Source: Brevibacterium mcbrellneri ATCC 49030 | GTDB taxonomy: Bacteria; Actinomycetota; Actinomycetes; Actinomycetales; Brevibacteriaceae | Direction of reading: 5' to 3' | NCBI RefSeq assembly: GCF_000178455.1 | Contig: NZ_ADNU01000007.1 | Location: 22,924 to 86,923, forward strand | Length of the DNA: 64,000 bases | Shown here: in pieces, positions 8,546 through 63,141 of the stretch | Layout: the number at the start of each line of letters is the position of its first letter | Numbering within the stretch: position 1 is the stretch's first letter | Translations under genes and position numbers: made by a program | Notes under the pieces: generated by a model | What the model saw: only the letters and a program-made list of their open reading frames with translations | Told to the model about the DNA's origin: nothing | Databases searched by the model: none

Positions 8546-10198
8546 ATGAAACACCTAAAATCTCTGTCTGCCATTTTTCTTGCAACCACCATGGCAGTCA
8601 CCGGTTGCAACGCAAACAACTTTGACGAACAGAAATCCGGGCTGGGAGAAACCGCTAAGGGCGGAGACTTAACGATCCTCACCTCGGGCACGGAAATGGA
8701 CATGGACCCAGGTAAGAGCCAAGGTCTGGCCATTACGTCCCTGGGCCTGGTGGCACGGCGTTTGACCACGTGGAAGATCCAGCCTGATACCACCCCCGAG
8801 GTCGTTCCTGACTTGGCTACGGACACCGGGACTCCCAGCGAGGACGGTAAGACCTGGACGTTTACCCTGAAAGACGGTGTGACGTTCGAAGATGGCACCC
8901 CGATCACGTCGAAGGACATCAAGTACGGGATCGAACGGTCCTTCTCGAAGGAGCTTTCTGGCGGTCTGAGCTACCACAAGACACTCCTGAAGGGGGCGGA
9001 CAAATATGCCGGCCCGTTCGATGGTAAGGAGCTCGACTCGATCGAAACACCGGATGACAAGACCATCGTGTTCCACCTCAACGAAGCGTTTGGTGACTGG
9101 CCGTGGATCGCCTCGATGCCCGCTTTCACCCCTGTCCCTAAGGACAAGGACAAGCCCGCGGAGTACGGGAACGCGCCTGTCGCCTCGGGACCCTACCGGG
9201 TTGAATCAAACACCCCGGGCACCTCAATGGTTCTCAAACGCAACGACAACTGGAACCAGGACACCGACAAGGTTCGCACAGCCGGCCCAGACACCATCAC
9301 GTTCAAAATGAGCCAGGACCCCACGGTGGCAGCGCAGTCGCTGATCAGTGATTCGAATGAAGCGCAAACCTCGTTTGGTGCGGACTTCATCCCTGCCGCT
9401 CAGTTGGCACAGGCTCAGAAGAACCCGTCCGCTAAGTCACGTTTGGTGACCAGCGATGATGGGGCGTTGAAGTATCTGGCGATTAACACCGAACGCATCT
9501 CAGACGCGGACGTTCGCAAGGCGCTGAACTACGCGGTCGACAAGAACGCGGTCCGCATTGCCTCCGGTGGTGAGATCTCCGGTAGCTTCGCCTCCACGCT
9601 CATTTCACCCGGAATTCCTGGGCGCCAAGAGTACAACCTGTACGAGGCACCGGACTCTGGGGACGCGGAAAAAGCCAAGCAACTGCTCGAAGGTAAGGAC
9701 GTGGGCACGCTGACGCTGCTGACCCGCAACGACCCGATCTCGTCAGCCCAAGCTCAAGCGATTTCGCAAAGCCTCAGCAAGGCAGGCGTGAAGGTGCGGA
9801 TCAAGGCTGAAGACACCAACTCGTTCTCCGCAGACGCGACACAGGGCGAAGGTGACTACGACCTGGCGCTGTCGTCGTGGCAGCCGGACTTCCCATCAGC
9901 CAACGCCAACATTGAGCCACTGTTCGCGTCGTCGCAGATCGGCAACGGAAACTACAACATTTCGCGGTATTCCAACCCCAAGGTTGACGACATGATCAGC
10001 AAGGCAACGCATACGATCGACGATAAAGAGGCGCAGAAGTTGTGGGCTGAAGTCGACAAGGCGATCATGGAAGACGCGCCCGTAGTTCCGCTGATGTACA
10101 CCAAGAACTCGTTCATGCACGGTTCTAAGGTGGAGAACTTCATCATCGGTTCGTTCCCTGCTTACCCCAACTACCTCAAGGTGTCACTATCTCAGTGA
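8546..10198 (+). CDS. ABC transporter substrate-binding lipoprotein, family 5
   Basis: A 550-residue extracytoplasmic solute-binding protein of the DppA/OppA family (SBP_bac_5). The signal peptide ends in the lipobox VTGC with the lipidated cysteine at residue 21, so it is membrane-anchored outside the cell. The mature part has the family hallmarks of Pro-rich entry strands, TFTLKDGVTFEDGTPITSKD (about 110-130) and KALNYAVDKNA in the second lobe. A good ribosome site (AAAGGAAAC) precedes the ATG. It captures oligopeptides or a similar ligand and delivers it to the two permeases upstream. The 143-base gap before it has no obvious terminator. Confidence 0.92.
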   Translation: MKHLKSLSAIFLATTMAVTGCNANNFDEQKSGLGETAKGGDLTILTSGTEMDMDPGKSQGLAITSLGLVARRLTTWKIQPDTTPEVVPDLATDTGTPSEDGKTWTFTLKDGVTFEDGTPITSKDIKYGIERSFSKELSGGLSYHKTLLKGADKYAGPFDGKELDSIETPDDKTIVFHLNEAFGDWPWIASMPAFTPVPKDKDKPAEYGNAPVASGPYRVESNTPGTSMVLKRNDNWNQDTDKVRTAGPDTITFKMSQDPTVAAQSLISDSNEAQTSFGADFIPAAQLAQAQKNPSAKSRLVTSDDGALKYLAINTERISDADVRKALNYAVDKNAVRIASGGEISGSFASTLISPGIPGRQEYNLYEAPDSGDAEKAKQLLEGKDVGTLTLLTRNDPISSAQAQAISQSLSKAGVKVRIKAEDTNSFSADATQGEGDYDLALSSWQPDFPSANANIEPLFASSQIGNGNYNISRYSNPKVDDMISKATHTIDDKEAQKLWAEVDKAIMEDAPVVPLMYTKNSFMHGSKVENFIIGSFPAYPNYLKVSLSQ

Positions 10199-11766
10199 AT
10201 GCTTTAGAGATTCGGAATGTGTCGGTGTCGTTTAACGGCGCCGAGGTCACCCACGACGTGAGTTTTGACGTGCCGGCTTCGTCGGTGGTTGCGCTTGTGG
10301 GTGAGTCTGGTTCCGGTAAGTCGGTCACGGCACTTTCGCTGTTGGGTCTCACCGGGGCTTCGGTCACCGGTGAGGCCCACCTGGCCGACGGCCCGGAACT
10401 CATTTCTGCCTCACCTCAGCTGTTGCGTTCCGTGCGTGGGAAGCGCATTGGCATGATCTTCCAAGAGTCCATGGGGGCGTTCGACCCCATGTACACGATC
10501 GGGTATCACGTGCGTGAAGCCATGCGAGCGCACGGAACAGAAGCGTCCGTTACCGAGGTGCTAAAAAAGGCTGGTCTGAAAGATCCTGACAGGATCGCTG
10601 GGTCATATCCGCATCAGCTTTCGGGCGGGCAGTTGCAGCGTGCGATGATCGCGCTTGCCACTGTGCATTCGCCTGAACTTCTCATCGCCGATGAGCCCAC
10701 CACGGCCTTAGACGTCACGGTTCAGGCGGGAATTCTGAATCTGTTGCGCGACGTCGCTCAAGAACGCGCAGTCCTACTGATTACGCACGATATGGGTGTC
10801 GTTGCCGATGTTGCGACCCATGTTGTGGTCATGAAGGACGGTCGTGTGGTTGAGACTGCGGGTGTCCGTGACCTGTTCGAAAACCCGCAGCACCCGTACA
10901 CGCGCAAGCTGTTGCAGTCGGTGCCCCGGATTACGGACCGTGCCGCGGAAGAACAGGACGCGAGTGAGACTGTTGCGGCTCGAGTGGAGCACGCCCGGGT
11001 TGAGCACGGGTCGACGGTTGCGCTTAACGACGTTTCGCTGACGATCCCCGCCCACACGATCGTGGGGTTGGTTGGTGAGTCGGGCTCCGGTAAATCGACG
11101 ATCGCTAACGTGCTCACGGGGGCGCAGAAACTTGCCAGTGGAACCGCCGAGGTCGCAGGAACTGCCGTAGTTCCGGGGACTTCCCGGCAGCAACGGCGGT
11201 TGCGCTCACGGGTCGGAGTTGTGTTCCAGGACCCGGCTGGATCTCTGAATCCTCGGCGCACGATCGGGGCTCAGATTGCCCAGCCGTTCGAGTTGCACAC
11301 GCGACTGTCGCGCCGAGATATCGCGCGCAAGGTTGATGGGTTGCTGGGCGACGTTCAACTGCCTGTGGAGTTTGCGCGCCGTTTCCCGCGGGAGCTTTCC
11401 GGCGGGCAGAAGCAGCGCGTGGCGATCGCTCGAGCTTTGGCGCTGGAACCCGACCTTCTCATCGCAGACGAACCCACCTCGGCCTTGGATGTTTCTGTGC
11501 AGACCGGGATCCTGGACCTGCTTGCCGAACTGCACGAGAAGCGTCAGTTCGCATCCTTGTTCATCAGCCACGACCTGGCGGTGATCAGTCAGGTGGCGTC
11601 GCGTGTGGTTGTTTTGCGCGATGGGCGCGTGGTGGAAGAAGGCGAAACGGGGCAGGTTTTGGGGGCGCCCAGTTCGGACTATACGCGGTCGCTCATCGAG
11701 GCAGCGCCCGTGCCGGACCCTGTTGAGCAAGAATTGCGTCGCGAAAAGTCGCGCGGATATCGTTGA
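10195..11766 (+). CDS. Fused double ATPase of a peptide ABC importer (DppD-DppF type)
   Basis: A 523-residue protein carrying two complete ABC domains. The first has Walker A GESGSGKS (36-43), signature LSGGQLQR (about 142) and Walker B LLIADEPTTALD. The second has Walker A GESGSGKST (about 297-305), signature LSGGQKQR (about 400) and Walker B LLIADEPTSALD. The fusion replaces the separate DppD and DppF subunits and powers the transporter encoded just upstream. It starts with GTG, overlapping the TGA of the binding-protein gene by four bases, so translation is coupled. Each domain ends with the peptide-transporter phrase HPYT or a variant of it. Confidence 0.93.
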   Translation: MNALEIRNVSVSFNGAEVTHDVSFDVPASSVVALVGESGSGKSVTALSLLGLTGASVTGEAHLADGPELISASPQLLRSVRGKRIGMIFQESMGAFDPMYTIGYHVREAMRAHGTEASVTEVLKKAGLKDPDRIAGSYPHQLSGGQLQRAMIALATVHSPELLIADEPTTALDVTVQAGILNLLRDVAQERAVLLITHDMGVVADVATHVVVMKDGRVVETAGVRDLFENPQHPYTRKLLQSVPRITDRAAEEQDASETVAARVEHARVEHGSTVALNDVSLTIPAHTIVGLVGESGSGKSTIANVLTGAQKLASGTAEVAGTAVVPGTSRQQRRLRSRVGVVFQDPAGSLNPRRTIGAQIAQPFELHTRLSRRDIARKVDGLLGDVQLPVEFARRFPRELSGGQKQRVAIARALALEPDLLIADEPTSALDVSVQTGILDLLAELHEKRQFASLFISHDLAVISQVASRVVVLRDGRVVEEGETGQVLGAPSSDYTRSLIEAAPVPDPVEQELRREKSRGYR

Positions 11767-11769
11767 AGC

Positions 11770-12951
11770 ATGACTACTTCTCATGGCGTAACCCCACCGA
11801 ACGTTCCACATTCCCACAACGGGCCGTTTGAAACTCCTGCGCAGGAGCCACGTAGCGAACCGTTCGAGAACCACTACCGCACCGCGCACAACCGCTGGTG
11901 GATGGGGCTCGTGGGGATTGTTGCGACCCTCATCGTTTTCTTTTTCGTGTCGATTGTGGGTGGCATTGTCGCGGTGGCGATCGACATTGCGACTGGTGCG
12001 ACTTCACAAGAAGACGCCATGGCCGGCAAGATCACCAACACCCCGCTGCTGCTGTTCACGGTGAACCTGTCGCTCATTTTGGGTGGCCTTGTTGCTTTGT
12101 TAGCGCACCGGATTCTGCACAAGCAGCCGTGGTCGCGCATGTTCTCGGTGTTGCCGCGTATGCGTTGGAAGTGGTGGGGCTTGAGCCTGGCGTGTACGGT
12201 GCCGTTGTTTGCGCTGTACATGGGAGTCGGGTTTCTCTTTGACAACGGCGCAATTCAGGGGTCTGGTGACTCGTCGTTCACGTTTGACGGTACGGCGTTG
12301 GCGTATTTGCTCATCATTGTTCTGACCACGCCGTTTCAGGCAGCGGCTGAAGAGGTCATGTTCCGTAGCTACGTTCCGCGCGTCTTTGGTTCGTGGATCC
12401 CGCGCGTGGGAGGGATAGTTGGTGTCATTGTTGCCACGATCCTGTTCACGCTTGCGCACGGGGCTTCCGACCCATGGCTGTGGGCGTACTACGCGGTGTT
12501 TGGGCTGGTCATGGCTGCGCTCACGCACTTCTCTGGTGGGATTGAGGCTCCCGTCGTCGTCCACGCAGTGAACAACGTGACTATGTTCATCATTGCGTTG
12601 TTATCAGGCGACATTTCTAACGCTTTTGATCGAGGCGAAGGATCCGGTGGTGCGTTCATGCTGTTCCCCATGGTGGCGCTCATTGTTATTGCCGGTGTTT
12701 TGACGCTTGTTGCGCGTTGGAGGAAGGTCGCGACGGCGGCCCCCGTTCACGTTCGCCCGGTTAAGCAGGCCCAGGTTCCTTATGGCGTGCCGGGGCAGGG
12801 TGCTCCAGGTCAGCCGGGCGTGCAGGCTGGGCAGCCTCAGGGTCAGTTGCAAGGCCAAGTGTCCCCAGCTCAGCCTGGTCAGGCTCCGCAGGGCCACCTG
12901 CAGCAGTCGTTTGAACCTCCAGCAGATCCGACGAACCGCCCGCACGCCTAA
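11770..12951 (+). CDS. CPBP-family intramembrane metalloprotease
   Basis: A 393-residue polytopic membrane protein with about eight hydrophobic segments. The CAAX-protease/bacteriocin-processing (CPBP) motifs are present: AAEEVMFRSYVPRV (EExxxR, about 193-199), LFTLAHG, and a late HAVNN motif (VVVHAVNNVT), giving the Glu and His residues expected at the active site. The last 65 residues are a Pro/Gln/Gly-rich hydrophilic tail ending in PTNRPHA. The gene starts three bases after the transporter ATPase and so belongs to the same transcript. Its substrate is unknown. A diverged copy of its last 16 codons lies 1.1 kb downstream (14005-14055). Confidence 0.87.
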   Translation: MTTSHGVTPPNVPHSHNGPFETPAQEPRSEPFENHYRTAHNRWWMGLVGIVATLIVFFFVSIVGGIVAVAIDIATGATSQEDAMAGKITNTPLLLFTVNLSLILGGLVALLAHRILHKQPWSRMFSVLPRMRWKWWGLSLACTVPLFALYMGVGFLFDNGAIQGSGDSSFTFDGTALAYLLIIVLTTPFQAAAEEVMFRSYVPRVFGSWIPRVGGIVGVIVATILFTLAHGASDPWLWAYYAVFGLVMAALTHFSGGIEAPVVVHAVNNVTMFIIALLSGDISNAFDRGEGSGGAFMLFPMVALIVIAGVLTLVARWRKVATAAPVHVRPVKQAQVPYGVPGQGAPGQPGVQAGQPQGQLQGQVSPAQPGQAPQGHLQQSFEPPADPTNRPHA

Positions 12952-13011
12952 CTCGCATCTGACAACCCAACTCCGCCACCTCGGGGCCAAACGAAACGGC
13001 GCAAAGTGAGC
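12900..13011 (+). repeat. Direct repeat A (left boundary of the 13-14 kb islet)
   Basis: This 112-base block pairs with 14004-14112. The first 42 bases (the CPBP gene's last codons) match with about five differences, the middle 25-30 bases are diverged, and the last 38 bases (12974-13011) are identical. It ends in the left arm of the palindromic element (GGCGCAAAGTGAGC). The right arm is degenerate here. Confidence 0.85.
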
Positions 13012-13041
13012 CTAGCCGTCGCTATAACTCACTGCTCCGGT

Positions 13042-13812
13042 TCAGAGTGAGCGCAGGCGATCCACATGTCGCGTCGCAGAGGCAGAATCTGGTGCCGTGA
13101 TGTGATACCCCAGAGCCGTCAAAGCCTCTACAGCGGCACCCGGAGCGTCCCGAACCGCCGCCTTTGTTTGTGTCATACGCCATGCTGCTCGAGCTTCGGC
13201 CAACACATCCCGGGCACCTCGCTCGTGGTCAACGTTGAACTCGTCAATCAGCATCTCGAGAATGTCTTCCAAAGCCGGTCGGAACCTATGCCCACCCAGT
13301 GGGAAGTGCAGGTCCTGCAACGCTGGAATTCCGTCTTTACCACCTCGGCGTTGGGGACGGCGAGTGGTTCGGCCAACCTTGGTCATCACGTAAGTCATAG
13401 CGTCGCGGTGCGCGTGGACATGTAGATGCGCCGAAGGCACATTATTTGGGTCACGCAAATATTCGTAACGAAAAAGTGGCTGGGTACTTGCGCTCGTGAG
13501 CACCTTAATTGTCGAACTCTGAACCGCGAGGAACTGGTTCTCGCGATTCCACTCACAGTAGAACTCTGCTTTAAGCACCAGTAGCGGTTGACCATTAAAC
13601 GTTAAGACAATGCCCTTATCTGGGCACTGTCTTACCACAAGGCGATTATTGCTGTGGGTCGCTTCAAAACCATCGCAGCGCGGGGTGACTGCGCGGATCG
13701 TTCGCGTCATGGTGTCCGCGAATTTCTGCGCGTGTCGTACGAGGCCGTTAGAGAACTCAGTCTCGTCTGAGCAGGAACTCAAGGTCACGCAATTCGTCAT
13801 AGATCGCGGCAT
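13042..13812 (-). CDS. Unknown protein, second gene of a two-gene islet
   Basis: Up to 256 residues, no family recognised. Visible features: an N-terminal amphipathic stretch, a beta-rich middle (LVVRQCPDKGIVLTF, FYCEWNRENQFLAVQ), a histidine cluster HLHVHAHRD (about 133-141), a basic segment RRPQRRGGKD and a helical C-terminus. The histidine run resembles a HIT motif but lacks the rest of that fold. The start is uncertain: 13812, 13800, 13788 (GTG) and 13710 are possible, none with a good ribosome site. The longest reading overlaps the upstream small gene by 56 bases, which suggests coupled translation. GC looks lower than in the neighbours. A toxin-like or nucleic-acid enzyme role is only a guess. 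Confidence 0.6.
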   Translation of the reverse strand: MPRSMTNCVTLSSCSDETEFSNGLVRHAQKFADTMTRTIRAVTPRCDGFEATHSNNRLVVRQCPDKGIVLTFNGQPLLVLKAEFYCEWNRENQFLAVQSSTIKVLTSASTQPLFRYEYLRDPNNVPSAHLHVHAHRDAMTYVMTKVGRTTRRPQRRGGKDGIPALQDLHFPLGGHRFRPALEDILEMLIDEFNVDHERGARDVLAEARAAWRMTQTKAAVRDAPGAAVEALTALGYHITAPDSASATRHVDRLRSL

Positions 13813-13942
13813 CGTCAGCGTCTAAGTCATAGTTCGCTCCACGCACCTTGAACTCTTCCAGGTCGCCAACTCGACTTGCGAGCTCGTTATAACGCGCCTG
13901 TAGCTGCTCAGGAGACATGTACGTCACTGTACTTTCGCTCAT
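13757..13942 (-). CDS. Small acidic protein, first gene of the islet
   Basis: A 61-residue protein beginning MSESTVTYMSPEQLQARYNE and rich in Glu/Asp and Leu (GDLEEF, LDADDAAIYDELRDLEFLLRRD), with the heptad-like look of a short helical, perhaps coiled-coil, protein. The start at 13942 follows a purine-rich AGAAGAAAAGTGGG stretch. The small acidic protein before a larger basic-patch protein, with overlapping frames, is the classic arrangement of an antitoxin and toxin or of a regulator and effector, but neither protein is recognised. Together they form the whole content of the islet between direct repeats A and B. Confidence 0.6.
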   Translation of the reverse strand: MSESTVTYMSPEQLQARYNELASRVGDLEEFKVRGANYDLDADDAAIYDELRDLEFLLRRD

Positions 13943-14003
13943 GATCGCCCACTTTTCTTCTCGCAAAATGTCTGTGTCGGTATATTTTACCAACACGCTC
14001 CCC

Positions 14004-14112
14004 GCAGCAGCCGTTCAAACCTCCAGTAGACCCGACGAACCGCCCAGACCCGTAGCGCGCGTTTACCCAGCTCACGCCACCTCGGGGCCAAACGAAACGG
14101 CGCAAAGTGAGC
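14004..14112 (+). repeat. Direct repeat B (right boundary of the islet)
   Basis: This is the partner of 12900-13011. It starts with a diverged copy of the CPBP 3' end, keeps the 38-base block 14075-14112 identical to repeat A (beginning CGCCACCTCGGGG), and runs into the intact palindrome at 14099-14154. Confidence 0.85.
14005..14055 (+). pseudogene. Remnant of a duplicated CPBP C-terminus
   Basis: The frame reads QQPFKPPVDPTNRPDP and a TAG stop, compared with QQSFEPPADPTNRPHA and a TAA stop at the end of the CPBP gene at 12951. The match is in-frame and codon-phased, so this is a fragment of a duplicated gene end rather than chance similarity. No upstream part of the gene remains. Confidence 0.75.
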
Positions 14113-14154
14113 GAAACTACGCGTTATATTGCGTAGTTTCGCTCACTTTGCGCC
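14099..14154. repeat. Palindromic element, copy B
   Basis: Two perfect 24-base arms (14099-14122 and 14131-14154) flank GTTATATT. The left arm reads GGCGCAAAGTGAGCGAAAC then TACGC. The same sequence recurs as a 64-base palindrome at 62120-62183 and in degenerate form at 12999-13030 and 63022-63075. It is likely to act as a terminator for leftward transcription from 15265. Confidence 0.85.
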
Positions 14155-14353
14155 TTCTGGGCTTAGCTAAATCACCTGGACCTTCTCTCACGTAGGTTCA
14201 AAAGCCAGTTAATCTACACAGCTCAATCTGAAGTGTAGAGTAAACACCACTTTTGTTCGTTTTGTTCACGTTTTCGACCCATAATCGGCACGTTACTCTA
14301 CACAGCTCACGGAAAAGCGCGGACTCATGTAGACAAACGGACAGAACCAGCCC

Positions 14354-15265
14354 CTACAGCGAAGCACCCTCCCTCCCAGACACGCACCCCACTAGAGCAG
14401 CATCCAGGCTCGTCACCGGAAGATCGGCCAGCACCCCCGCGTGAAGAACCTGCGGCGAGTCCCACAAGTACTTTTGGTTGTGTAGTTCGCGGAAGGTTTG
14501 CGAAAACAAGCCCGTCACCTTCATCACAGTCCAGGGAATCTGGAACACGCCAGACGGCTCAGGCTTTGAAGCCACTCGCGCAAACGCACGCGCCAACTCA
14601 ACTTGCGATACCGGCCCAGCCGCCGGCGCATGAACGACAGACGGTAGGTCATGTGCGTTTTCAACCGCATACATCATTCCACGGACCAGATCGGGGATAT
14701 ACGTGATACTGCGAGGTGCCCTCACGTCACCCATACCAAGCGGGTGGCGACCTTTCATCACACGATCAAACACCAGCTGATGAAACACCGCCCCAGCCAA
14801 TGACGCAGTGGGACCAATGAGGTCCGCGGCAACAACGGAAACGGTCTTCCCACCGTACGCCTCGCGGTTGCGTAGCAGTTGAGCTCGCACTTCTCCTAAT
14901 GGCGACGCAGGCTCAACTGGTTCCCCTTCCTTCAGCTCCTGCGCTCCGGCCCCCCACGCATACACGGACTCGGGGAAAACCACCGGCACGTCACCAGCCC
15001 ATTCGAGCAATTGTTTCTCGCGCGGAATCAGCGCGTCCCGCCAGGCACGCGCACTATAAGGCGCGTGCATACAGTTAAACACCCCGTCGAACCCCTCCGA
15101 ACCCAACTCAGAGAGCGCATCTTGCACATCACCCTGTATAACCTCAGCTCCCCTGCGCTGCGGCATACCTGACCGCTTCACGACCGTGACGCGATCCCCA
15201 CGCTCAGTCAGTTGCCGAACAAGCTCCCGCCCAATCTGGCCATACCCAACTACCAAAAAACTCAT
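14354..15265 (-). CDS. NAD(P)-dependent epimerase/reductase-like (extended SDR)
   Basis: A 303-residue Rossmann protein with the nucleotide-binding motif GYGQIGRELVRQL at the very N-terminus and the atypical-SDR pattern of short NAD(P)-binding reductases, including a substrate-domain RSITYIPDLVRGM segment (about 192-205). No YxxxK catalytic pair is evident in the usual place, so it may be an atypical, non-classical oxidoreductase. The start at 15265 is set by a near-perfect ribosome site (GGAGGGCGAA). It is divergent from a TetR gene, with two matching operators in between, so the TetR protein almost certainly controls it. The natural substrate, presumably the inducer or a related compound, is unknown. 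Confidence 0.8.
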   Translation of the reverse strand: MSFLVVGYGQIGRELVRQLTERGDRVTVVKRSGMPQRRGAEVIQGDVQDALSELGSEGFDGVFNCMHAPYSARAWRDALIPREKQLLEWAGDVPVVFPESVYAWGAGAQELKEGEPVEPASPLGEVRAQLLRNREAYGGKTVSVVAADLIGPTASLAGAVFHQLVFDRVMKGRHPLGMGDVRAPRSITYIPDLVRGMMYAVENAHDLPSVVHAPAAGPVSQVELARAFARVASKPEPSGVFQIPWTVMKVTGLFSQTFRELHNQKYLWDSPQVLHAGVLADLPVTSLDAALVGCVSGREGASL

Positions 15266-15282
15266 TTCGCCCTCCACAATTT

Positions 15283-62119: not shown

Positions 62120-62183
62120 AAACGGCGCAAAGTGAGCGAAACTACGCGTTATAACGCGTAGTTTCGCTCACTTTGCGCCGTTT
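62120..62183. repeat. 64-base perfect palindrome (copy C)
   Basis: The left half runs from AAACGGCGCAAAGTGAGC to ACGCGTTA, and the right half is its exact complement, so the whole 64 bases are self-complementary with no loop. It sits between the convergent GT2 and deacetylase genes as a bidirectional terminator-like hairpin. B (14099-14154) is the same element, and degenerate copies lie at 12999-13030 and 63022-63075. Confidence 0.92.
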
Positions 62184-62187
62184 GGGC

Positions 62188-62967
62188 TTACTTCTTTTTC
62201 TTTTGGGCGAGCAGCTCCGACACAGTTACAAATTCGTACCCTTGTGAGCGCAGCTCTCTCACAATGTGGGGAATCGCGCTACGTATGTTTTCTCTCCCGT
62301 ACCACGGGTGCAAGATCATAATGTCGCCAGGTTTCGCGTGCTTGATGGCGTAGTTGACGATCTCGTTCGTGGGTTGTGTCTTTTTACGCGTGAAGTCTTC
62401 CGGGTGATTACTCCACATCACTGTTGTTCGTTCGTGGGCATGCAAATACATAGGGAGGATTGCGCCCTTTTTACCGTACGGCGGGCGGAAGTGCACAGGA
62501 CCGTAGTAGCCCGCTTTACGAATCAGGGTGTCTGAGGCAGAGAGTTCCTTGGCCACCGTAGTGTACGAAACACCAAGCATGGGCCGGTGATTGAATGTGT
62601 GGTTCCCTAACTCATGACCATGGCTTACCAGTGTGCGCCCGTATTCCGGGTACTTCTCCATGGCCGAGCCAATGACAAAGAATGTGGCGCGAATATCAAG
62701 CTCGTCGAGCATTGAAACGATTTGGTCTGTGTGCTCATCTGGACCGTCATCAAAAGTGAGCGCGATGAGTTTCTTCTCCGTATCCACATGATTCACGAGC
62801 CCACCGAAAAGCTGGTACGTGCGCGACGTAGAAATCTTTTCCATGGCCACCGGAACTGAAATCGCCAAAAGAGACAACACAGCAGCGAGGGCCATGACGC
62901 GCTTAGCCAGAGCACGCGAGCGCACCCCAAAGTGGGGGTGGTAGATCAGACGAAACAATCGGCTCAC
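62188..62967 (-). CDS. Polysaccharide deacetylase (NodB homology domain)
   Basis: A 259-residue exported or membrane-anchored enzyme: a basic N-terminus, one hydrophobic helix (AAVLSLLAISVPVAME), then the NodB domain. The metal/catalytic aspartates are in LIALTFDDGPDEHTDQI, the histidine pair in GNHTFNHRPM, and the RPPYGKKGAIL motif (motif 3) is clear. It ends with a lysine-rich tail (LLAQKKKK). It would deacetylate a surface glycan or peptidoglycan. The convergent GT2 synthase is a plausible source of its substrate. Palindromes C and D lie on either side. Confidence 0.9.
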   Translation of the reverse strand: MSRLFRLIYHPHFGVRSRALAKRVMALAAVLSLLAISVPVAMEKISTSRTYQLFGGLVNHVDTEKKLIALTFDDGPDEHTDQIVSMLDELDIRATFFVIGSAMEKYPEYGRTLVSHGHELGNHTFNHRPMLGVSYTTVAKELSASDTLIRKAGYYGPVHFRPPYGKKGAILPMYLHAHERTTVMWSNHPEDFTRKKTQPTNEIVNYAIKHAKPGDIMILHPWYGRENIRSAIPHIVRELRSQGYEFVTVSELLAQKKKK

Positions 62968-63021: not shown

Positions 63022-63075
63022 GGCGCAAAGTGAGCGAAACTGCACAATATAATGCGCCGTCTTGCTCGCTTTGCG
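63022..63075. repeat. Palindromic element, degenerate copy D
   Basis: The left part GGCGCAAAGTGAGCGAAAC matches the perfect copies, and the right part keeps GCTCGCTTTGCG, so CGCAAAGTGAGC still pairs with one wobble. The middle has diverged. It lies upstream of the deacetylase gene and downstream of the leftward gene at 63142-63663, where it could act as a weak terminator. Confidence 0.75.
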
Positions 63076-63141
63076 TTGCCTTGCACTGACGGCAGCAATC
63101 ACTGTGGGCCCGCTCGGCCCGGCGAGACACTCCCTGTGAGG

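Follow-up and report, generated by a model that had tools for sequence, protein, structure and literature searches.

The islet lies in a 64,000-nt stretch of the genome of Brevibacterium mcbrellneri ATCC 49030 (the window, with positions counted from its first letter). Two overlapping leftward genes, P1 and P2, are found there between direct repeats, both of which are copies of the 3′ end of a CPBP-protease gene. The features of the region, by position and strand, are as follows:

11770–12951, + strand: gene for a CPBP (Rce1-like) intramembrane protease; ORF, open throughout; PF02517, E = 6.5e-16
12897–13011, + strand: left repeat copy, with the CPBP tail, stop and 3′ UTR, ending 14 nt into the left arm of the palindrome
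12974–13011, + strand: 38-nt perfect repeat, left copy
13042–13812, − strand: ORF for P1, 256 aa, pI 9.1, predicted toxin/effector
13757–13942, − strand: ORF for P2, 61 aa, pI 4.3, three predicted helices, predicted antitoxin
14001–14112, + strand: right repeat copy, a detached CPBP tail (17 codons, stop, UTR)
14075–14112, + strand: 38-nt perfect repeat, right copy
14099–14154, no strand: complete dispersed palindrome, 24-nt arms with 8 nt between
14354–15277, − strand: SDR/epimerase gene, the right neighbour, which adjoins CPBP in B. paucivorans too

Repeat comparison confirmed the 38 identical bases at 12974–13011 and 14075–14112 that the initial annotation had noticed, and its 42-base block with about five differences was recovered (42 nt at 88%) inside an adjoining 81-nt block of 73% identity (12897–12977 and 14001–14081). 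A 20-nt part of the 38-mer occurred at only these two sites in the window and had no match in 100 shuffles. The last 17 CPBP codons fall inside the left copy. The right copy had been described as a codon-phased fragment of the protease tail, and it does read PQQPFKPPVDPTNRPDP* in the tail frame; of the two, it also better matches the one copy that B. paucivorans has (90% over 69 nt). Both leftward frames between the repeats are in the ORF list, together with further mechanical frames of at most 119 aa, each overlapping P1 or P2. The lower GC content proposed for the islet was borne out, with 0.518–0.544 in 500-nt windows over 13250–14249 against 0.57–0.63 just to the left and 0.55–0.60 just to the right.

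The suggestion that a terminator had been duplicated along with the gene end held for one copy only: the right copy runs into the complete palindrome (MFE −49.3 kcal/mol), whereas the left contains just the first 14 nt of the left arm. With up to 3 mismatches allowed, the palindrome arm had 41 matches in this genome, 49 in B. paucivorans, 3 in a further relative (G008, where a reversed-pattern control gave 1) and 0 in another (G045). The palindrome belongs to a dispersed repeat family, and that family accounts for 14 to 19 of the 38 shared nt. The palindrome might itself have caused the duplication, if hairpin slippage, breakage or transposition duplicated the local sequence and thereby trapped the pair or kept it in place. 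Its abundance in this genome and in B. paucivorans would suit such an origin, as would a left copy ending inside the left arm and a right copy holding the whole palindrome, but the duplicated block reaches about 100 nt past the palindrome into the gene, and other bracketed pair loci have tRNA ends or unrelated sequence as their repeats. We regard a palindrome-driven origin as improbable.

Distribution of the gene pair and its bracketing repeats

P2 adjoined P1 in 95 of the 98 tabulated entries, and in a 96th (L031) it was recovered by tblastn (E 0.003). The general form was an acidic P2 of ∼60 aa with a basic P1 of ∼245 aa, the median pI over 74 loci being 4.6 for P2 and 8.5 for P1, and the longest P1 frame reached the P2 stop in 64 of 69 loci. 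Among 57 Brevibacterium genomes, P1 was present in 12, and P2 in 11 of the same 12 and in none of the 45 others. P1 was thus patchy (11 of the 56 Brevibacterium genomes other than this one, one of them with merely a truncated relative), and the 11 Brevibacterium sites, window included, had no flank in common above threshold. One B. paucivorans record (P0088) had a partner that was 95% identical. Beyond chromosomes, P1 was found in five plasmid records, with P2 in all three that were inspected, and a P1 search matched eight IMG/VR contigs. The pair was also located in a Mycobacterium abscessus prophage, between the lysis genes and the integrase (two records match, one inspected). Judged from gene sequences, the pair is an actinobacteria-wide module in which order and overlap are conserved.

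Repeats bracketed 7 of the 83 pair sites, compared with 8 of 557 control positions (p = 0.0013), and the other 76 pair sites had no bracketing repeat within 1.5 kb. The enrichment weakened (5/81, p = 0.016) once two loci were set aside: the window, whose repeat had been the reason for choosing it, and one of the two from A. oris. The expectation that the pair would be bracketed elsewhere by the ends of other genes held at a minority of sites, where tRNA-Lys, tRNA-Gly and tRNA-Ser ends and a vapC-like remnant (read by eye) were seen. Counting pair loci alone, a tRNA gene lay within 3 kb in 19 of 89.

At locus L027 a 3.3-kb element (3.29 kb between repeats) with 42-bp tRNA-Lys ends contained an integrase of the tyrosine type, a DUF5677 gene and the pair, and its flanks met with a single 40–42-bp copy at the empty sites of four genomes (G007, G053, G012, and G032). 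Shorter arrangements, with repeats about 1.2–1.3 kb apart around the pair, were found at L028 (tRNA-Gly, 42 bp) and at two A. oris loci, L120 and L123 (112–119 bp). The L028 islet itself lies within a larger insertion of 3.9 kb in a tRNA-Gly hotspot, as shown by the gene at L028:2429–3744, which adjoins the intact tRNA in 5 of 11 relatives; a clean empty join was not found there, the left gene of the islet not lying beside an intact tRNA in the relatives examined. No empty site was seen for L021 or L089 in the relatives compared.

Insertion at the protease gene

An empty site with one repeat had been predicted for relatives, and the CPBP–SDR junction of B. paucivorans (G025) has a single copy of the CPBP tail and no pair, with 228 nt in place of window positions 12837–14239 (1403 nt). 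Alignment of the two junctions makes an insertion at CPBP relative to B. paucivorans well supported. The initial annotation had taken the islet for a small acquired cassette with a duplicated target gene end, and this empty site and the bracketed pairs elsewhere support that view. Recombination between direct repeats can also delete what lies between them and leave a single copy, and the one tail of B. paucivorans could have arisen in this way if an ancestral pair had been deleted between two tails. That history was already disfavoured and seems very unlikely, since G008 and G045 have other sequence after the protease gene and no pair, the 38-nt block is missing from the B. paucivorans junction, and in other species the pair has a patchy distribution at unrelated sites.

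The window's two tails represent distinct alleles, each of which is also known from other records: the …NRPHA tail of the left copy in P0096–P0098, P0100–P0102, and P0110, and the …NRQHP type in P0105 of B. paucivorans and in P0104, P0106–P0108, and P0111. Later recombination seems to have shaped the site as well, the 38-nt repeat being partly palindrome arm and the two tails being of different alleles.

The reading we favour, to which we give about even confidence, is that the islet is an inserted, integrase-less cassette with a predicted antitoxin–toxin pair, likely the cargo of an integrative element at the CPBP 3′ end. The pair would have entered as such cargo, and the insertion would have left one copy of the target gene end on each side. 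The event at CPBP may have been of the att type, as in L027, with the integrase outside the islet (lost, or supplied in trans), and a later homologous exchange of CPBP alleles could then have made the two tails differ. Between the window repeats, P1 was the only frame of integrase length. A resident integrase acting in trans was sought with PF00589, and the genome gave only two such recombinases, with open frames of 327 and 330 aa, which we take to be typical XerC/XerD lengths. Several observations sit uneasily with this reading. Outside the 38 nt the window copies have just 73% identity, 14–19 of those 38 nt are palindrome arm, and the 38-nt block is absent from the B. paucivorans site. Most pair sites (76 of 83) lack a bracketing repeat, some controls (8 of 557) have one, the genome offers just the two PF00589 recombinases, and the L028 islet is nested in a larger insertion.

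Homologous import may instead account for the site, without an integrase at CPBP: DNA from a different strain, carrying the pair behind its own CPBP allele, would have paired with the resident CPBP, its far end joining at the 38-nt block or the palindrome, so that two tails of different allele type were left. The allele difference in the window and the presence of both NRPHA and NRQHP tails in other records fit such an exchange, NRQHP carriers may hold the islet too, since P0107 and the partner P0091 share one value for the longest contig (38516), and a 38-nt identity beside one of 73% resembles a crossover or conversion tract. Alone, however, import leaves unexplained how the pair first arrived behind a CPBP gene and why tRNA ends bracket it elsewhere, and we hold it to be possible and rather less than probable.

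The integrative-cassette reading invites comparison with known elements. In the excerpted text of one source, a CIME is a cis-mobilizable element that has lost its integration and transfer genes and kept attL and attR (PMC5704250). The islet is similar in that a target gene end stands on both sides of its genes, none of which encodes an integrase. Integration and transfer genes are absent between the repeats, where only P1, P2 and the overlapping frames of at most 119 aa occur, and the two CPBP ends, which may or may not represent attL and attR, have only 38 identical nt, 14–19 of these being dispersed repeat. L028 likewise shows accretion at a tRNA hotspot. Unlike a CIME, the islet is only 1.1 kb long with two genes, its target is a protein-coding gene, its two ends are not identical, and a parent ICE or IME was not identified for it. 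With respect to integrative elements in general, L027 has its integrase and a single 40–42-bp copy in four genomes, while the window islet has no integrase and the G025 site is a single tail lacking the 38-nt block. PICMI and other minimalist satellites, as far as the excerpted account describes them, are also very small islands, comparable to L027 with its integrase and few genes and unlike the integrase-free window islet (PMC10803314).

Duplicated gene ends around an orphan pair were the sign that led from raw sequence to a mobile element left unnamed by ordinary annotation, and an unexplained hypothetical gene pair becomes a testable mobile module, one unmatched in the curated libraries of families that were searched.

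Possible roles of P1 and P2

Across 76 aligned homologues, residues H129, H133, H135, H169, R176, R178, E182, and D183 of P1 were invariant or nearly so. P2 starts at the ATG at 13942, in a frame open to 13996, and shares 56 nt with the longest P1 frame. Searches with Pfam, NCBIfam and PADLOC models gave nothing above cut-off for either protein and no confident PDB fold match was obtained; against PADLOC-DB 2.0.0, the window P1 and P2 matched 0 families at E ≤ 1. Keyword searches of the open-access literature brought up no paper recognised as describing the pair, though a description that uses a different name could have escaped them.

Toxin–antitoxin pairs typically have a small acidic protein encoded first and a larger basic one encoded second, in overlapping genes that occur together. 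The pair has the type II gene layout, with a small first gene, overlapping frames and co-occurrence, and on this basis P1 is likely a toxin and P2 its antitoxin. P1 would harm the cell or halt its growth whenever P2 is missing or titrated away, for example during phage infection or upon loss of the element. Like type II systems, the pair has a short upstream gene for an acidic protein that runs into a longer downstream gene for a basic protein, and it occurs patchily, on plasmids and in prophages too; unlike them, P1 and P2 match no known family or clear fold. P1 also exceeds the usual length of a type II toxin. Type II toxin–antitoxin systems are encoded by many prophages and plasmids of M. 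abscessus, and the excerpted text of that report does not name the pair (PMC8092298).

Several observations on the toxin–antitoxin assignment point the other way. Neither protein matched a known toxin or antitoxin family in the libraries searched, and no clear fold emerged. In one genome (G046) an IS3-like insertion splits P2 and the P1 frame stays open, which would be unexpected for a strict antitoxin if P1 were not silenced; in another (G022) P1 is partly degraded and P2 was not found.

The pair could also be a two-protein enzyme or regulator system, with P2 switching P1 on or placing it where it acts; a module for phage defence or stress would be one example. The invariant His, Arg, Glu, and Asp residues of P1 would suit an enzyme, and the open P1 frame beside the split P2 of G046 is compatible with such a role. 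Some neighbours are defence genes: an Hma-type helicase beside L099, an SNF2-HKD protein beside L095, a type I methyltransferase beside L111, and type I-E CRISPR genes adjoining the pair on a Streptomyces albus plasmid. Yet gene sizes, charges, overlap and co-occurrence look like those of toxin–antitoxin pairs, and no PADLOC family exceeded 3 of the 148 neighbours among the 25 of 91 families listed (of 294 candidate frames, the scans took in 148, chosen by proximity under a size cap, and pair neighbours alone). An enzyme or regulator system is a serious candidate that falls somewhat short of an even chance.

We tentatively propose, as a broader view that is doubtful at present, that the pair is an undescribed, actinobacteria-wide module for toxin–antitoxin function or phage defence whose effector has a new fold, among the smallest integrative cassettes, which rides between captured tRNA- and protein-gene ends and sheds its integrase. 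Were it a toxin–antitoxin or defence system, it would be a new family in the phylum of Streptomyces, Corynebacterium and the mycobacteria.

No prophage was recognised among the neighbour genes of the window copy. In Mycobacterium phage prophi102-2, genes 77–78 are a homologous pair in the same order, placed between lysis genes and integrase; they differ from the window pair, the identity to P1 being about 35% across 63% of its length.

The islet and its empty site

The interval between the CPBP protease gene and the SDR/epimerase gene of the window contained two overlapping leftward frames, encoding a basic protein (P1) and an acidic protein (P2), and two copies of the protease gene end.

Features of the CPBP–SDR interval
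11770-12951, CPBP protease gene (PF02517), left neighbour of the islet
12897-12977 and 14001-14081, second repeat block, 81 nt at 73% identity
12974-13011 and 14075-14112, direct repeat, 38 identical nt
13042..13812, minus strand, P1, 256 aa
13757..13942, minus strand, P2, 61 aa
14099-14154, perfect palindrome with 24-nt arms
14354-15277, SDR/epimerase gene, right neighbour of the islet

The right copy read PQQPFKPPVDPTNRPDP*, in register with the CPBP protease tail, and GC in the 500-nt segments inside the islet was 0.518–0.544. The coordinates and the description of the islet in the initial annotation were confirmed.

The pair is an insertion at this site. In Brevibacterium paucivorans (G025), where the flanks aligned with those of the window at 90.9% and 93.3% DNA identity, only 228 nt stood in place of positions 12837-14239 (1403 nt). 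They contained a single CPBP tail and neither the pair nor the 38-nt block, an empty site of the kind that the initial annotation had proposed to look for. Two other compared genomes (G008 and G045) had other sequence after the protease gene, and the pair was absent there too. The single tail of G025, with 20 nt past the stop, was closer to the right copy (90% over 69 nt) than to the left one, where identity was 74% in an alignment of 188 nt reaching further into the gene. Both tail types were found in other protein records, the left copy's …NRPHA and the …NRQHP of B. paucivorans; the two ends in the window are therefore different alleles.

The right copy ran into the palindrome (folding energy -49.3 kcal/mol, z -12.3), while the left copy ended 14 nt into its left arm. 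The window's genome had 41 matches to the arm and B. paucivorans had 49, against 3 in G008 (1 with the reversed-pattern control) and 0 in G045. The palindrome is a dispersed repeat and no private terminator, so that between 14 and 19 of the 38 identical nt belong to a repeat family; one 20-nt piece of the remainder occurred at these two places in the window and nowhere else in it. Of the proposed duplication of a gene end and its terminator, the gene end stands, but the terminator is not duplicated in full, the whole palindrome being in the right copy only. Two further copies in the window, at 62124-62180 and 63022-63077, about 0.9 kb apart, flanked a gene (62188-62967) that looks like one for a polysaccharide deacetylase.

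Conservation of the P1–P2 pair

A search of 5.8 billion proteins yielded 78 homologues of P1, none with a listed Pfam domain, and library and fold searches named neither P1 nor P2. P2 directly preceded P1 in 95 of 98 rows (74 by reading frame and a further 21 by frame scan). Among the 95 are one weak match (L140, E 0.003) and one IS-split locus represented twice (L020 and L088), and the 98 also count L029 and L030, which are truncated second copies; with seven duplicate loci removed, the figure was 88 of 91 distinct loci. The rows without a partner were L026, where P1 was partly degraded, L031, where the P1 frame was broken (P2 does show there in a separate search, E 0.003), and L163, at a contig end. 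The longest P1 frame extended to the P2 stop in 64 of 69 distinct loci, and a start codon giving an exact 4-nt overlap was present in 18 of the 69. Median pI over 74 loci was 4.6 for P2 and 8.5 for P1.

AlphaFold2 predicted three helices for P2 (pLDDT 84, pTM 0.63). Its model of P1 (pLDDT 85, pTM 0.83) combined one helix and seven strands with a C-terminal part that was helical. Alignment of 76 of the 79 P1 sequences at hand revealed invariant residues H169, P171, G173, G174, R176, R178, P179, E182, D183, R208 and R212, and nearly invariant ones including H129, H133, H135, R136 and D137.

Distribution and mobility of the pair

The pair is a mobile, conserved module. P1 was present in 15 of 99 genomes searched, counting the window's own. 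Of the 56 other Brevibacterium genomes 11 had it, one of these (G025) as a truncated relative only. Among 57 genomes, P2 accompanied P1 in 11 of the 12 that had P1, and it was in 0 of the 45 others. Eleven Brevibacterium loci, the window included, had no common flanking DNA of more than 200 aligned bases within 3.5 kb. A scan of named genomes turned up 116 relatives, the best 80 of which were retained. P1 occurred on five plasmid records (Rhodococcus, Curtobacterium and Streptomyces), and P2 adjoined it in all three fetched. P1 was also in two M. abscessus prophage records, in one of which, the one fetched, the pair lay between lysis genes and an integrase, and in eight IMG/VR contigs (P1 search alone). 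A tyrosine integrase lay within 500 nt of six loci (five confirmed by Pfam, the sixth from annotation), and Phage_integrase was the commonest Pfam among neighbouring proteins (5 members; 148 scanned of 294 candidate frames). Another B. paucivorans record (P0088) had a P2 of 95% identity, to which none of the P1 homologues from the protein search was traced, and which is possibly an orphan P2. Since G025 is without such a pair, presence may differ between strains of this one species. On a Streptomyces albus plasmid (L085), the pair was located upstream of a type I-E CRISPR-Cas operon, at a distance of about 1 kb.

Repeats within 1.5 kb on each side bracketed 7 of 83 pair sites versus 8 of 557 control positions taken from the same loci (Fisher p=0.0013), or 5 of 81 (p=0.016) minus the window and one of two A. 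oris loci. The pair bracketed by other gene ends, for which the initial annotation had proposed a search, was found at a minority of sites (tRNA-Lys, tRNA-Gly, tRNA-Ser and vapC-like).

Repeats bracketing the pair at other loci
L027, 42 bp of tRNA-Lys, 3.29 kb apart, enclosing an integrase, the pair and a DUF5677 gene
L028, 42 bp of tRNA-Gly, 1.29 kb apart
L089, tRNA-Ser end plus 25 bp, 2.94 kb
L120 and L123 (Actinomyces oris), 112-119 bp, 1.24 kb
L142 (Tomitella cavernea), 9431-9670 / 11010-11248, 240 bp at 88%, 1.58 kb, resembling vapC remnants by eye

In at least one relative, then, the pair is part of an element that has an integrase and lies at the end of a tRNA gene. L027 had a clean empty site, its flanks meeting with one 40–42-bp copy in four genomes (G007, G053, G012 and G032). 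The L028 islet was part of a 3.9-kb insertion at tRNA-Gly(ccc), which looks like an integration hotspot. Two further genomes of that genus (G104:C1:299692-303152 and G101:C9:317229-325757) had partial copies of this tRNA at distances of 3.4 kb and 8.4 kb. At L142, a frame that is vapB-like by eye stood beside the right repeat.

The favoured reading is that the window islet is an integrase-less form of such a tRNA-end-type element, inserted at a protein gene end; its left tail would have been brought in by the element or exchanged afterwards. Against this reading, the repeat copies differ outside the 38 nt, part of the 38 nt is a dispersed repeat, 76 of the 83 pair sites were without visible close repeats, and the window's genome has just two PF00589 recombinases. 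A serious rival is that homologous recombination produced the duplication at this site; the CPBP site has probably been affected by recombination between strains.

Function and neighbours

Gene order, overlap, charge, co-occurrence and distribution make a toxin-antitoxin pair the best guess for P1 and P2. Against it, P2 of G046 was split by an IS3-like insertion (L020 4923-6262, two IS3-like frames labelled from reading frames), while the P1 frame was open. For it, the window's genome (L029 5790-6280, G000:C79) and B. paucivorans (L030 6261-6784, G025) each had a degenerate second copy that kept the P2 frame with P1 cut to 114 aa, stopping before the conserved histidine motif, which is how a discarded toxin with a retained antitoxin would appear. 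Defence genes were among the neighbours of the pair, in numbers too small, and with no control for comparison, to demonstrate that it acts in defence.
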